Shown here: piece by piece, positions 5,074 through 14,888 of the stretch
Numbering within the stretch: the first letter of the stretch is position 1
Layout of the letters: the number at the start of each line of letters is the position of its first letter
Assembly: GCF_012272855.1 (NCBI RefSeq)
Contig: NZ_JAAXCQ010000022.1
Location: forward strand, 1-64,000
Origin: Arenibacter sp. 6A1
GTDB lineage: Bacteria; Bacteroidota; Bacteroidia; Flavobacteriales; Flavobacteriaceae
Reading direction: 5' to 3'
Length of the DNA stretch: 64,000 nt
Position numbers and translations under genes: made by a program
The notes under the pieces: generated by a model
What the model was told of the DNA's origin: nothing
Databases searched by the model: none
Seen by the model: the letters and a program-made list of their open reading frames with translations, nothing else

Positions 5074-6351
5074 ATGAACGAGCCACTTGCAGAAAGGGTA
5101 CGCCCTAAAACCCTCGAAGACTATATCAGCCAAAATCATCTAGTCGGTGAAAAAGGAGCCTTGACCCATCAAATTAAAAAAGGCATTTTACCTTCCTTAA
5201 TCCTTTGGGGGCCCCCAGGCACCGGAAAGACTACCTTGGCCAATATTATCGCCCAGGAAAGCGGACGCCCATTTTATACCTTAAGCGCTATTAACAGTGG
5301 CGTTAAAGACATTAGGGAGGTCATTGAAAAGGCCAAACAAAGTGGCGGACTTTTTACCGCTAAAAACCCGATTCTTTTTATTGATGAAATTCATCGTTTT
5401 AGCAAGTCGCAACAAGACTCTCTCTTGGCCGCTGTTGAAAAAGGCTGGGTTACCCTTATAGGTGCTACCACCGAGAACCCAAGTTTTGAGGTTATTCCCG
5501 CCCTATTGTCACGATGCCAGGTATATATCCTAAATGCTTTTGGAAAGGAAGATCTGGAAGCCTTGCTCTACAGGGCTATGGAGATTGACGATTACCTGAA
5601 GTCGAAAAAAATAACGCTTAAAGAAACCGAGGCACTCATGCGCCTTTCTGGAGGTGATGGCCGTAAACTGTTAAATATTTTTGAACTCATCGTAAATTCC
5701 GAGGCCTCGGATACCATCACTATTACGGATGAAGCCGTTCTAAGTAAAATTCAGAAAAACACCGTATTATACGATAAAACTGGGGAACAACATTACGATA
5801 TCGTATCTGCTTTTATAAAATCTATCCGCGGCAGCGATCCCAATGCTGCTGTATATTGGTTAGCCAGAATGATCGAAGGGGGCGAGGACGTAAAATTCAT
5901 CGCTCGTCGCTTGCTTATATTGGCTTCCGAAGACATAGGCAATGCCAACCCCACGGCTTTGGTCATGGCCAATACTACCTTTCAATCGGTAACCACTATT
6001 GGCTACCCAGAAGCGCGCATCATATTAAGTCAGTGCGTCATTTATTTGGCCACTTCGCCTAAAAGCAACGCTAGCTATATGGCCGTTAACCACGCCCAGC
6101 AATTGGTAAAACAAACCGGTGATCTTTCCGTTCCTATTGCCCTGCGAAATGCCCCAACCAAATTAATGAAGGATCTAGGGTATGGACAGGAGTACAAGTA
6201 TGCCCATGACTACGCCAATAATTTTGTAGCCGAAGAGTTTTTTCCAACTGAATTGTCTGGCACCAGCCTCTATAAGCCTGGAAACAATCCACGTGAAAAT
6301 TCCTTAAAAGACTTTTTAAAGAACCGCTGGAAGGATAAATACGATTTGTAG
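5074..6351 (+). CDS. rarA: Replication-associated recombination protein A (AAA+ ATPase)
   Basis: 425 residues, the usual length of RarA/MgsA/WRNIP1. Walker [10 protein letters not shown] at residues 46-54 and Walker [10 protein letters not shown] at 101-109 (with the family HRF signature), then sensor [12 protein letters not shown] and the arginine-finger segment LLSRCQVY. The C-terminal half is the MgsA tetramerisation domain ([16 protein letters not shown]). RarA acts at stalled replication forks and interacts with SSB and clamp-loader functions. It appears monocistronic, followed by a 700-base non-coding region. Confidence 0.96.
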
Positions 6352-6462
6352 AAAAGGTGTGCATCGCAATGTACAACCCACCTCATCGAATAAGAAAGCT
6401 GTAGGGCCGCTCAATAAAATTAAGTAAATGAAATGCTTTTATACCTTGTAGCATTATTGTTT

Positions 6463-6542
6463 GGGCGTTCCCTCCTTCGTCGGTCGGGCCATTGGCTATA
6501 TCCCTTGCGCTGCTGCGGGGATGCCGCCGCTGTCCCTAACGC
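6463..6542 (+). repeat. Dispersed intergenic repeat, copy A
   Basis: An ~80-base GC-rich element that starts GGGCGTTCCC and ends CCCTAACGC, so its ends are inverted relative to each other (GCGTT / AACGC). Inside are a TCGGTCG block, GCTATATC, a small variable hairpin and GGATGCCGC-GCT. The same ordered blocks occur in reverse orientation at 6836-6927. It is much richer in G+C than its surroundings. I recall similar GGGCGTT...CCCTAACGC elements between genes in other Flavobacteriaceae, but cannot check this here. Confidence 0.65.
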
Positions 6543-6835
6543 GGAATTCAGGGAACCATAAACAGTTTTAGCACTAATCAGGGAAGTTCAAATATCTAAA
6601 GCGGGCAAGCTTAATAAGGATAGATCAATAAATCATATTCGCCGCTAGTCCCACAACTTGTCCGAAGAGGTACGGATTATTTCCCCATACCCGCAAAAGG
6701 GGCTAACTTCCCAATATATTTTTCAATGATTATTATCAACCTGCTAAAGCCAAGGCGCAGGCTGAAACCTTATTCTAACTGCAGGTCCTTGCATTTTCTG
6801 TGCGGTACCTTTGGGTAATCGTTCCATGGAATCTT

Positions 6836-6927
6836 GCGTTAGCTATTGCAGCGGCATCCTTTTTTAATAGGCCATGAGCCGTTTAAAAAAGATACAGCGG
6901 AAAGAGCGACCCGATAGGGGAACGCCC
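6836..6927 (-). repeat. Dispersed intergenic repeat, copy B (inverted relative to copy A)
   Basis: Read on the minus strand it begins GGGCGTTCCCC, continues with TCGGGTCG and GCTGTATC, has a central hairpin with TTTTTTAA / TTAAAAAA arms, then GGATGCCGCTGC and ends GCTAACGC. The conserved outer blocks match copy A in order and spacing, while the central hairpin differs completely in sequence. About 290 bases separate the copies. Confidence 0.65.
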
Positions 6928-7067: not shown

Positions 7068-7946
7068 TTAGAATTTAATATTCAGCTCCTTATTGATCAA
7101 CTCCTCACCTTGGTAATATTCAAAAATCCATTTCTCGCCCTTTTTATAAACAATACCATCGACCTGTTGGTCCGTTTTGGCCATATAAAAATTCTTGAGA
7201 CTGGTTTGATACAACTTCATGGTGATTTTAGGAGTACTATCTACCAATTGATAGCCGTTTGTAATGGCTTGGGCATACAAAACCGCGGTATCCTTTATAA
7301 GTTTTACGTGATGCAAAGCAGGATCGGCAGCAACGGGTTCCATACTTTTAAAATATTGTTCCTCCAAGGTAGCCTTTTGCTCTACTAGCTGTTGCTGCTT
7401 AGTTGCTGCTTCATTTTCAGCGGCATCTCCAAACCTTATATTTTTATCCTTTTCCGCTGGGTCTTGCAAGCGTACGACATCGTCCTTAAAACTAATGGAT
7501 ACCATAGCATTTTTGTCCTTGGGCGTATAGGTATAATTTAATTTTGCAATGTCCTTAAAACTGTTTTTTATGGCTTCTGAATACGCAGCCCTATACTCCT
7601 TTTCCTTGCTTCTACCTTCTCCCGTAAGAAACACTTCTTTATTAGCGCAATCCGTTAGAGACAGCTTTACCTTGGTAGTGAACAAGGAAGAGTCGTCTAT
7701 TAATTTAACCAATAGGCCTTTGCAACGATCTACCATCAGCTCTTCTGGCAAATCATTGTCGTAGACCGCTGTAAATCCGTTTTCTACAAAAAGCTGTTTC
7801 ATCAGGGTACTGGTCAAGTACTGGTTCTCTGACTTAAAGGCCTCAAATTTTGCAGGAACAATGATATACTTATAATTATTTATGTCAGATTGTGCCATCC
7901 CGTAATAACTAAAAAGAAAGCACAGGGATACTATAATATTTTTCAT
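7068..7946 (-). CDS. Secreted protein of unknown function
   Basis: 292 residues from the ATG at 7946. The longer in-frame start at 8030 is rejected because it would place a hydrophilic stretch before a clear signal peptide (MKNIIVSLCFLFSYYGMAQS, cleavage near residue 19). The mature protein is hydrophilic, with a conserved-looking alpha/beta N-terminal half (IIVPAKFEAFKSENQY, LTSTLMKQLFVENGF) resembling periplasmic proteins that measure a small domain against stress, and a glutamine-rich linker followed by a C-terminal ~60-residue domain ending in IFEYYQGEELINKELNIKF. I recognise no named domain. It is the last gene of a cluster of exported proteins (10053 to 7068), ending at a terminator. 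Confidence 0.75.
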   Translation of the reverse strand: MKNIIVSLCFLFSYYGMAQSDINNYKYIIVPAKFEAFKSENQYLTSTLMKQLFVENGFTAVYDNDLPEELMVDRCKGLLVKLIDDSSLFTTKVKLSLTDCANKEVFLTGEGRSKEKEYRAAYSEAIKNSFKDIAKLNYTYTPKDKNAMVSISFKDDVVRLQDPAEKDKNIRFGDAAENEAATKQQQLVEQKATLEEQYFKSMEPVAADPALHHVKLIKDTAVLYAQAITNGYQLVDSTPKITMKLYQTSLKNFYMAKTDQQVDGIVYKKGEKWIFEYYQGEELINKELNIKF

Positions 7947-8068
7947 ATGGGTTTTATTTATTGTTTTAACGTTCCCACGTAATTTGCATAGCTGAATTCG
8001 CCTTTGCGACCAGCTTTTGGCCATGCTCATTTCATAAGAATCGTAAATTGATTGCTATAGACTCAGAC

Positions 8069-13093: not shown

Positions 13094-13309
13094 TTATAAA
13101 TCAGGATTTTTTAAGGCAAGTGTACCACTGCCTTTACAATTAAATGTATCTGTACTTGCGGAATAGGGGTCGTATTCGCTTTTTCAGGGAATAAATTTAC
13201 CACCACTTAGGTCGGTTACAATACTGTCTTGATACTCAAAGTCAGCCTTTAATGTTTCTTGGGCAATTCCTTATCGCTCTAAATCAAAGAATCTATGGCC
13301 TTCCATAGC
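13094..13309 (-). pseudogene. Decayed C-terminal relic of a SusD-family gene
   Basis: Minus-strand translation gives the SusD C-terminal signature MEGHRFFDLER, then a stop where the family has Trp, then GIAQETLKADFEYQD, IVTDLSGGKFIP, another stop, and, after a frame change, a TPIPQVQIHL segment and an ending LALKNPDL followed by a stop, matching the usual IPQ-QID and LKQNPGY endings. At least two stops and one frameshift are needed. Nothing upstream of about 13309 extends the match. No susC relic was seen beside it. The order of four family motifs makes chance unlikely. Confidence 0.75.
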
Positions 13310-13412
13310 TATAAACTAGTGCTATAGGGGTAGTCTATTATTGAAAATATAAAAACACTATATATGGCATTTCTTTCAACATAAGGATGTCGAAAAAATA
13401 AAGGAAGGTATA

Positions 13413-13453
13413 AAAATCAACAGAGCTCCTATGATCGGAGCTCTGTTGATTTT
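13413..13453 (-). terminator. Strong hairpin downstream of mpl
   Basis: A perfect 17-bp inverted repeat (13413-13429 and 13437-13453) with a 7-base loop, 74 bases after the mpl stop codon. The T tract is short on either strand, but position and stem strength fit a terminator. Confidence 0.7.
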
Positions 13454-13526
13454 AAAAAGGACGAGCGAGTAAAATGCTGGCGCTAATAATGGAATTTACT
13501 TTTTACAAAAATTGTTGATAAACGCT

Positions 13527-14888
13527 CTAGTGCGATTCGACCATCTCTTTTACAGCCAATAAATCGAGTCCGCCATAATTACCGGAACTCATTAACAACA
13601 AGGCTGAGTCTGTTATGTTTTGGGAAAATAAAAATTCTTTAAAAGCAGTGGCATCGGTAAAAACTTCTAAGTTTTGTCTCTCAAAAGCAGTCACAATTTG
13701 CGCTTTGGTCACCTCTTGTAATTGTTTGATCTTTACCGACTCTGGAGAATAAAATACGACTGCCATATCTGCGGCATCTAAAGCACCTTGGTATTCCTTT
13801 AAAAATTCTGCATTTAGACTACTATAAGTATGGAGTTCTAAACAGGCTATTATTTTTTTATTTGGATATTGTTCTTTTACGGCACTTGTTGTTGCCGCTA
13901 CCTTACTTGGGGAATGGGCAAAGTCCTTATAGGCAACACTGCTTTTTCCCTCGCCAATTTTTTCCAGTCTTTTAGAAGCCCCTTTAAAACTAGCAATAGC
14001 CTCATAAAAGTCGTCCTCGTCTACTCCCATGTTCTGGCAAATCCACTTTGCCCCCGCCAAATTATTGAGGTTATGTTTGCCAAAAACCTCTATCGGCATA
14101 GGACCCTCTGAAGTTTCCAAGATGGTCTCTCCATTTTCTACCTGATATTCCGGAGTACTATAAGGTAATTTCCTAATAGGGTTTTCGGAAGCCTCCACTA
14201 CCCTTCTTACTTCTGCATCCTCTTCATTATAAGTAATGCTCCCTCCTTTTACAATACTATCAACAAATATTTGGAATTGCTCTACATATCCTTCATACGT
14301 AGGAAACACATTGATATGATCCCATGCAATGCCACTTAGCAAGGCAATATTAGGCTTGTACAAATGAAACTTTGGTCTTCTATCGATAGGAGATGACAAA
14401 TATTCATCGCCTTCTAAAACTATAAAATCATTTTCCTCGGTCAGATGTACCATTCTATCAAACCCATCTAATTGAGCCCCTACCATATAATCTACTTCCC
14501 TACCGTGATAATTTAACACATGCAGAATCATAGATGTTATAGTGGTCTTGCCATGGCTCCCCCCTATTACGACCCTTGTTTTATGTTTTGACTGTTCATA
14601 TAAAAATTCTGGGTAGGAATAAATGGTAAGCCCAAGCTCCTGAGCTCTTAATAACTCGGGATTATCTGCCTTAGCATGCATGCCCAAAATAACAGCATCC
14701 AAATTGGCATTTATTTTCTCGGGAAACCATCCGAAAGATTCCGGAAAAAGCCCTTGGTCTTGTAATCGGGTTTTAGAAGGTTCAAAAATTACGTCGTCAC
14801 TTCCAGAAACGGTATATCCCTTATGGTGCAAAGCTAAGGCTAGGTTGTGCATGGCACTTCCTCCAATGGCAATAAAATGTATGTGCAT
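13527..14888 (-). CDS. mpl: Mpl-type murein peptide ligase (UDP-MurNAc:tripeptide ligase family)
   Basis: 453 residues. Mur ligase fold: N-terminal Rossmann domain (HIHFIAIGGSAMHNLALAL), the ATP-binding loop GGSHGKTTITSMI at about residues 108-120, the central-domain motifs VLEGDEYLSS and LSGIAWDHINVFPTYE, and the C-terminal domain with AYKDFAHSPSKVAAT. The IGGSAMHNLA start (rather than the GIGGIGMSGIA of MurC) and the SxIAWDHINVF motif are typical of Mpl, which joins recycled murein tripeptide to UDP-MurNAc. Cytoplasmic. A MurC-like role cannot be excluded. Transcribed divergently from the alpha-2-macroglobulin gene, another envelope gene. Confidence 0.88.
   Translation of the reverse strand: MHIHFIAIGGSAMHNLALALHHKGYTVSGSDDVIFEPSKTRLQDQGLFPESFGWFPEKINANLDAVILGMHAKADNPELLRAQELGLTIYSYPEFLYEQSKHKTRVVIGGSHGKTTITSMILHVLNYHGREVDYMVGAQLDGFDRMVHLTEENDFIVLEGDEYLSSPIDRRPKFHLYKPNIALLSGIAWDHINVFPTYEGYVEQFQIFVDSIVKGGSITYNEEDAEVRRVVEASENPIRKLPYSTPEYQVENGETILETSEGPMPIEVFGKHNLNNLAGAKWICQNMGVDEDDFYEAIASFKGASKRLEKIGEGKSSVAYKDFAHSPSKVAATTSAVKEQYPNKKIIACLELHTYSSLNAEFLKEYQGALDAADMAVVFYSPESVKIKQLQEVTKAQIVTAFERQNLEVFTDATAFKEFLFSQNITDSALLLMSSGNYGGLDLLAVKEMVESH

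Follow-up and report, generated by a model that had tools for sequence, protein, structure and literature searches.

A back-to-back pair of Flavo-1-family repeats in Arenibacter: a shared three-way junction model, fixed sites and a possible mobile past

Here we present an analysis of two structured elements, type A and type B, which stand as a back-to-back pair with facing 5' ends inside a convergent-gene gap of Arenibacter sp. 6A1. Type B is a member of the Flavo-1 family, type A occurs in well over a hundred copies in the same genome, and the sequences of both types are consistent with one shared fold. Placement of the copies is intergenic and biased toward gene 3' ends, and constraint at fixed sites is strong. 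We consider it somewhat probable that the two types constitute an ERIC/BIME-like pair of the Flavo-1 family, which was once mobile and is now immobile and kept by selection on the folded strand. The data argue for Flavo-1 as a family of DNA repeats whose fold has three arms and which includes a subtype missed by the public model.

The element pair and its family

The window is a stretch of 64,000 nucleotides, taken from a genome of 4.67 Mb in 60 contigs. The original prediction had placed two inverted copies of one repeat in it, at 6463-6542 on the plus strand and 6836-6927 on the minus strand. The shared blocks that it named were found at their positions in both copies; its limits and orientations were refitted, so that the first copy now runs from 6462 to 6542 on the minus strand and the second from 6836 to 6927 on the plus strand. 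The features of the site are as follows.

5074..6351, plus: left neighbour, which from its sequence we take to be a RarA-type AAA ATPase gene; it runs toward the element pair
6462..6542, minus: type A element body, 81 nt, with 5' end GCGTTAG at 6542 and 3' end CGCCCA at 6462
6465..6469, minus: type A closing stem P1, 3' strand AACGC
6471..6483, minus: type A short arm P3, CCGAC-GAA-GGAGG, with tandem G.A mismatches and a C-GNA-G triloop
6486..6536, minus: type A long arm P2, with GGG/CCC, a covarying 2-bp step, ATCCC/GGGAT and a GC-NNN-GC cap
6538..6542, minus: type A closing stem P1, 5' strand GCGTT, partner 6465-6469; paired in 55/55 distinct sequences, all picked with a pattern that contains GCGTTAG and hence this strand itself
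6543..6835, no strand: spacer of 293 bp separating the A and B 5' ends
6574..6586, plus: CTAATCAGGGAAG block (reverse complement CTTCCCTGATTAG), in the spacer
6836..6927, plus: type B element body, Rfam Flavo-1; the Rfam match spans 6837-6915 plus
6836..6840, plus: type B closing stem P1, 5' strand, partner 6921-6925; paired in 36/36, two of them via one G-T
6860..6890, plus: type B variable arm, consisting of T6, a variable GC-rich stem and A6
6910..6919, plus: type B short arm P3, CCC-GATA-GGG
7068..8030, minus: right neighbour, an ORF of 320 aa, convergent with the left neighbour

The middle of the repeat had been described as differing between the copies and yet remaining a hairpin, which the refitted features bear out: the type B arm at 6860-6890 is built as T6, variable GC-rich stem and A6, and type A has a conserved ATCCC/GGGAT stem with a GC-NNN-GC mini-hairpin as its cap. 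The ends GCGTT and AACGC are mutually inverted, as had also been noted. Because they pair within a single copy as stem P1, they close the fold besides forming the mutual inverted ends. On reading, the spacer at 6543..6835 carries degenerate ATTGTTN-type tract remnants beside each element, and no ORF of 80 aa was found in it. The A-B pair can be regarded as one insert of about 466 bp or more.

The original prediction had no name for the family. A name exists, Flavo-1 (RF01705), and it applies by score to type B alone: the type B copy reached 45.2 bits against a gathering score of 42, and the window type A copy fell below the threshold and was unlisted even at E-values up to 5. Three of eight type A copies (stretches L118, L113 and L098) were listed by the Rfam model, at 21.8-35.9 bits and none over 42; the type A copies tested here escape the Flavo-1 threshold. 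Type A is nevertheless a Flavo-1 relative, to judge from the common stem, the 5' half and the chimeric copies. One chimera joins a type B arm to a type A short arm (L049:3520-3615), and four others join type A arms to a type B-like short arm (L082:4389, L083:4511, L102:3729 and L113:14954), so the arms seem exchangeable.

Further copies, for which the original prediction had called, proved to be abundant. BLAST with the window stretch gave 52 matches in its own genome, itself included, and the Flavo-1 model gave at least 68 places genome-wide, at least 49 of them over the cut-off, with 150 of 1099 first-look candidates scored. Using the 24-base 5' consensus GCGTTAGNNAYNGCRGCGGCATCC and up to 3 mismatches, we obtained 227 genome matches (116 forward and 111 reverse); the same pattern read backwards gave 0 forward and 0 reverse, a contrast far greater than chance would give. 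We estimate some 170-190 copies of type A, about 20 kb apart. In 81 stretches totalling 845 kb, most of them selected around known copies, 126 matches were found at up to 4 mismatches, one of which (L118:11754) was a chance match and was dropped, leaving 125 copies. A profile scan of a contiguous 785 kb (E up to 1e-3) yielded 41 elements, 34 A and 7 B, all of them full length at 74-95 bits; one truncated type A copy is known, at L069, outside the contiguous set.

The original prediction had mentioned similar elements between genes of other flavobacteria, and the pattern does occur in 93 of 149 Flavobacteriaceae genomes, this one included. The family survey counted 227 matches here, 59 and 52 in genomes of two further genera, and between 0 and 23 in each of the remaining 146 genomes; it understates diverged copies elsewhere, since the pattern is tuned to the genome in which it was built. 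In the genus with 59 matches (G033), 35 of the 59 read GGCTTAGGG, not GCGTTAGGG, which would be a compensatory closing-stem change if the partner strand also changed.

A three-way junction model for both types

The alignment on which the fold is based comprised 56 type A sequences, 51 of them from this genome and five from relatives, together with 36 of type B, of which one came from the sister species, G159; type A copies not exactly 81 nt long were left out of the column and triloop counts. One three-way junction fits both types, with a GCGTT/AACGC closing stem, a short arm, and a long arm that has a GSS/SSC step, two conserved internal loops and an exchangeable tip. In this arrangement 96.5% of type A cells and 96.1% of type B cells are paired, against at most 48.1% and 60.7%, respectively, with slid partners. 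Cells changed on both sides numbered 30 in type A (shuffled mean 8.7) and 61 in type B (shuffled mean 23.0), values reached by 0/500 shuffles in either case. Two of five covariation measures, the two least misled by relatedness, were unremarkable: pairs changed on both sides came to 4 against 2.4 in type A (39/500 shuffles) and 7 against 5.7 in type B (77/500), and further pair types to 8 against 7.2 (172/500) and 18 against 15.7 (41/500). A large share of the fold is invariant across the aligned sequences, so that covariation gives no test there. Folding energy measured against shuffles is unusual for type B (z -3.11) and not for type A (z -0.68).

The foot, GCGTT/AACGC, is present in 55/55 of the distinct, pattern-picked type A sequences and in 34/36 of type B, the other two having one G-T. 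Further up, the covarying type A pairs (columns 11-53 and 12-52) switch between C-G, T-A, A-T and G-C; failures at these columns are mostly C.T, T.C and G.G, never G.T. The variable arm stays paired as its sequence changes, in keeping with the original proposal of a freely varying middle under structural selection. Apical loops of the form C-GNA-G were found in the short arm of 116/136 and in the long arm of 67/136 distinct type A sequences. Triloops of the C-GNA-G type, of which d(GCGAAGC) is an example, are unusually stable in DNA.

The mismatches of the type B arm point to one strand. In 43 distinct arms, counted ungapped from the outside inward, there were 30 G.T mismatches against 8 A.C (p 0.0005, which overstates the evidence because the arms share ancestry), or 25:7 without one aberrant 52-nt arm. 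This excess suggests that the strand reading GCGTTAG...AACGCCC is the one whose fold is kept. Such a bias is compatible with both single-stranded DNA and RNA, and does not decide between them.

Fixed sites, neighbouring genes and chromosome layout

Copies are shared site by site with the sister species. Among the copies whose flanks could both be aligned to the G159 stretches fetched, 13/13 (12 A, 1 B) occupy the same site in the same orientation; G159 has 9 copies in 180 kb of its contig C59. The orthologous bodies are identical at 1012/1063 positions (95%) and align ungapped, while the 100 bases adjoining them on either side are identical at 851/1215 (70%) and 903/1205 (75%), with many gaps. 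In L094, two of the 13 orthologous bodies are separated by 7 and 8 coordinated changes, which look like subtype replacement; hence the constraint could in part be concerted evolution. For the window pair, the two species differ at 1 of 81 positions in the A body and at 7 of 91 in the B body, the latter including GGG for GCT in G159 with the partner unchanged, which breaks two pairs. The spacer measures 293 nt here and 195 nt in G159, and BLAST aligns only about 20 nt of it next to B; by this comparison the A-B spacer has largely been replaced between the two genomes.

A second comparison used a type A site near atpC in five other species of the genus; over all pairs, the body reaches 96.8% identity there, and the flanks 60-64%. 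First-look candidates number 28-42 per other Arenibacter genome against 230 (this genome) and 219, and since the candidates are few and the differences track locus relatedness (L147 and L148 share one), homogenisation is less likely in the species of the atpC site. Downstream of atpC, this genome has a type A copy at some 270 bp (L203:1325-1405, C58) and G163 has one at about 250 bp (L144:1501-1581), the two being oppositely oriented with respect to atpC and having unrelated flanks; it was either inverted in place or inserted twice independently.

The empty sites that had been suggested as a check were absent between this genome and the sister species, and appeared deeper in the genus. Among 18 genus genomes the window pair is present only in this genome and G159, and the locus in the other 16 holds no element (best E 0.41). 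In 13 of those 16 a match to the next gene was listed, about 180 bp or less after the rarA match. At 80 rarA loci across the family there was no significant match downstream of rarA, the one weak match (E 0.061) lying 2.7 kb away. Three Flavobacterium rarA loci have a type B-like element just upstream of the gene (L318:2892-2947, L338:901-968 and L340:2891-2946), on the opposite gene side from the window pair. Synteny breakpoints at type A copies (L118 and L098 against G151 and G152, L118 also against G165) were considered and set aside, as breaks also fall between element-free genes.

With respect to genes, 99 of the 125 copies could be classed by their flanking ORFs, 12 overlap ORFs of 82-300 aa and 14 lie at stretch edges. 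Compared with background gaps drawn from the same stretches with a mechanical ORF caller, copies are over-represented in convergent-gene gaps (38/99 against 75/407, p 5e-5) and under-represented in divergent-gene gaps (11/99 against 85/407, p 0.03). An intrinsic terminator was rejected on reading, since the T6-stem-A6 order of the type B arm is wrong for one, whichever strand is taken. Also rejected was a promoter in the type A 3' flank, where the logo AAttA.tAt.ctaaa is one base off the Bacteroidetes promoter box TAnnTTTG.

Seven type B copies lie 0.4-1 kb from contig ends (C30, C8, C29, C31, C32, C56 and C59) in mutually common DNA, which fills the contig end on the 5' side of the copy. On C30 (L043:5043-5916) the DNA 5' of the type B copy runs into the 5' end of 16S rRNA, so that type B also stands upstream of at least one rRNA operon. 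A larger mobile unit was therefore rejected as the source of the contig-end DNA. Most likely this DNA consists of leaders of rRNA operons, as is shown at C30 and inferred at the remaining six ends, and the DNA common to rRNA operons seems to have type B at its upstream border. Contig C29 also carries a group II intron match (L046:27-106), at 40.6 bits against an Rfam cut-off of 40.

The family is classed by Rfam as an sRNA gene, and each Flavo-1 copy might accordingly be a transcribed, structured small RNA acting in trans. One strand is favoured in the fold, G.T pairs are tolerated and constraint at a single site is strong, as this reading would have it. However, the flanks of 70 solo type A copies hold no common upstream or promoter-like block beyond T runs, and between tandem genes the copies show no orientation bias (++ 20 and -- 15 for type A). 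In Flavobacterium psychrophilum, Flavo-1 matches are reported to be sense or antisense to transcribed regions without distinction, and often to fall outside them (PMC9723704), a pattern that fits a DNA repeat better than an RNA gene. Moreover, it is in our judgement implausible that so many near-identical copies should all be trans-acting genes, and we hold the small-RNA reading to be improbable.

Neighbours less than 2.5 kb apart form 17 pairs in the 845 kb: 13 are A-B pairs with facing 5' ends, two are facing A-A pairs and two are reversed A-B pairs. The spacers of different A-B pairs are related to each other. Sequence common with another copy is found upstream of 65/125 copies and downstream of 8/125; ATTGTTN-type heptamer tracts precede 6/7 B and 11/34 A elements in the contiguous set, and the CTAATCAGGGAAG block, at up to 2 mismatches, occurs within 150 nt upstream of 12/125 copies and within 150 nt downstream of 1/125. 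These recurrent pairs, together with the patchy counts of the family survey, would suit a non-autonomous mobile element of the MITE/REPIN type that is still active, the unit being the A-B pair with its inverted TTTGGGCGTT..AACGCCCAAA ends. Against continuing activity stand the 13/13 copies common to the sister species, the RAYT-type genes described below, with their different palindrome, and the flanks, in which no pairing stands out as a target-site duplication in 70 solo A or 29 solo B copies. The type B query likewise found no match among 72,556 plasmid and 50,697 phage records. We therefore doubt that the element still moves, and the copies do not look mobile now as far as their sites can tell. 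One viral contig carries one exact match to the pattern.

Neighbouring type A copies tend to alternate in orientation. The discovery set comprised 0-mismatch copies among the matches listed, as far as contig C23: of 100 on the list 88 were entered, the other 12 lying on C14-C16, C24, C29-C32 and C34, and their sole type A neighbour pair (C34) is in the test set. This set gave 42 opposite and 17 same (permutation p 0.001), for neighbours some of which may not be immediate, as only 0-mismatch copies are on the list. The contigs fetched as a test (C34, C46 and part of C58) gave 23 opposite and 8 same. Both sets combined came to 65 opposite and 25 same (one-sided p 1.5e-5; 28:2 below 12.6 kb), a count that keeps the truncated copy at L069 and a tandem-duplicated pair at L104 (65:24 without the duplicate). 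On the three test contigs, type A copies are also spaced more evenly than under random placement (CV 0.58, with a random mean of 0.92, p 0.0004).

Alternation and even spacing would be expected if type A were a chromosome-layout element, protein-binding or domain-marking, with orientation and spacing themselves under selection. We think this unlikely. Alternation is absent in the two other genera with many matches (20:23 in G044, with 52, and 14:21 in G033, with 59), and other Arenibacter have far fewer candidates, the complete genome G151 showing only 10 pattern matches, most of them with a 5' half like that of type B, and three further BLAST places that resemble type A; the layout therefore cannot be essential in the genus. 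In addition, deletion between close direct repeats would remove neighbours in the same orientation; such recombinational loss would give a similar picture and could explain much of the alternation. A bolder conjecture, to which we give as little credence, is that type A is an architectural site on the scale of the chromosome: an 81-nt folding site, alternating and kept at fixed positions by selection, which some factor would read as single-stranded or extruded DNA. One Arenibacter lineage would have recruited it from a repeat family filed as small RNA, and amplified it. If functional, a layout that is alternating, even and strongly constrained would make type A a bacterial chromosome element of a new kind; if it stems from the purging of close direct repeats, it would be a clean natural record of that purging.

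Candidate mobilisers and comparison with known systems

This genome has four Y1-type transposase matches, the RAYT-type ones being a pair at C58 and one at C30. The REP-like, RAYT-linked nature that the original prediction had suggested found no support: the C58 pair, one member of which is apparently frameshifted near its end, is flanked by its own palindrome, GCTAGCGCGAGCGTCACGCTCGTGCCGG, unlike the element. As for the linked transposase that was to be looked for, these genes thus go with another palindrome, and a tyrosine recombinase near one type A site is weak evidence. In C58:243000-258000 (L057:3354-6421 and 13306-14170) the two RAYT-type genes stand in a 1.6-kb tandem duplication, accompanied by a third copy without a long ORF; 147-bp tandem repeats in this region bear the palindrome CGCGAGCGTCACGCTCG, and the third copy starts about 100 bp from a type B element. 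The Y1 transposase on C11 was rejected as a mobiliser, because on reading it is IS200-like and the density of copies can account for the type B copy near it. No autonomous partner with the same ends, of the sort that a MITE of a DDE transposon should have, was noticed on reading about one third of the genome (1.63 Mb with overlaps). Since no mobilising enzyme was identified, past mobility is deduced from copy-number differences and empty sites only.

The tyrosine recombinase belongs to a module that recurs in the genus. In 4 of 20 neighbourhoods (G152, G163, G157 and, at 4.6 kb, G159) the integrase module has a type A copy within reach, at distances of about 0.1-4.6 kb, one of the four copies missing the first 5 model positions; three other neighbourhoods show weak partial type B-like matches. 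The G152 enzyme, of the integron/Xer type, scores above the cut-off of NF040815 and below that of TIGR02249, and a DUF2116-like ORF stands beside the integrase in G152 (25.1 bits against a cut-off of 26.8), G157 and G159. With a folded strand and a variable tip, the element might thus be an attC-like recombination site for a chromosomal integron integrase. This we regard as very improbable: the ends run GTT..AAC, opposite to the R''..R' of attC, no rearrangement was seen at 13/13 sites, and in this genome, which has the most matches, the nearest counterpart of the integrase is distant (best match 29%). The attachment of type A to the integrase is loose and probably reflects one conserved site inherited by several species. 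Beside the integron-type integrase of G163, contig C3 (L253:1097-6979) carries direct repeats with 300-nt units at 408-nt spacing, and G151 contig C1 (L263) has repeats with imperfect palindromes ending ATAGCCCATGTTAGCG, attC-like in look; possibly these represent a chromosomal integron in Arenibacter.

In the reading that we prefer, of a once-mobile and now immobile pair, the A-B pair would have entered the gap between its two convergent neighbours in an ancestor common to this species and G159, after spread as a non-autonomous, ERIC-like element by a trans-acting enzyme. Each element would act via one strand, folded as a three-way junction with a replaceable long-arm tip and a capped short arm. 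The copies, no longer mobile, may be selected because a protein or nuclease recognises the folded strand at gene 3' ends, by analogy with BIMEs and ERICs, the recognised form being either single-stranded or cruciform DNA or a transcript. The even, alternating spacing of type A could have come from deletion of close direct repeats, from a role in chromosome layout, or from both.

Comparison with known systems sets the element apart from each of them in some respect. The attC consensus has RYYYAAC at its 5' and GTTRRRY at its 3' end. Like attC, the element is a folded single strand with a variable tip, but its ends, GCGTTAG..AACGCCC, carry the core sites in the opposite order, and it is dispersed, not arrayed, in a genome whose integrases include no close relative. 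With REP and BIME sequences, as described in the parts of the literature that we drew on, it shares intergenic placement, gene 3' ends and inverted pairs. However, its foot is GCGTT/AACGC and not the GTAG/CGTC of REP, its length exceeds the 20-40 bp given for REP sequences, and a different palindrome flanks the RAYT-type (TnpA-REP) genes at C58.

ERIC, or IRU, is a 127-bp, mostly intergenic and highly structured repeat, present in 30 to 711 copies between relatives and with no transposase assigned, according to the parts of two sources available to us (PMC10969869, PMC2229807). The element works like ERIC, being about 100 nt long, intergenic, structured, variable in copy number and likewise lacking an assigned mobiliser, a likeness of behaviour, drawn from no sequence comparison, and not of membership. 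Unlike ERIC, which in the same accounts has a 7-bp terminal inverted repeat, TA ends and target-site duplications, the element here forms a three-way junction and leaves no detectable duplication.

Finally, Flavo-1 itself (RF01705; Weinberg et al. 2010, PMC2864571) is, in the portions of the literature that we consulted, among the most abundant 'sRNA' families, known from computation only and without a function (PMC9029176). Type B belongs to it by score, and the long arm of our fold is the Rfam structure. Rfam, however, models the long arm only; the element described here adds a closing stem and a third arm, comprises a second subtype, A, below the threshold, reaches 227 pattern matches within a single genome and, in its placement, resembles a DNA repeat more than an RNA gene.
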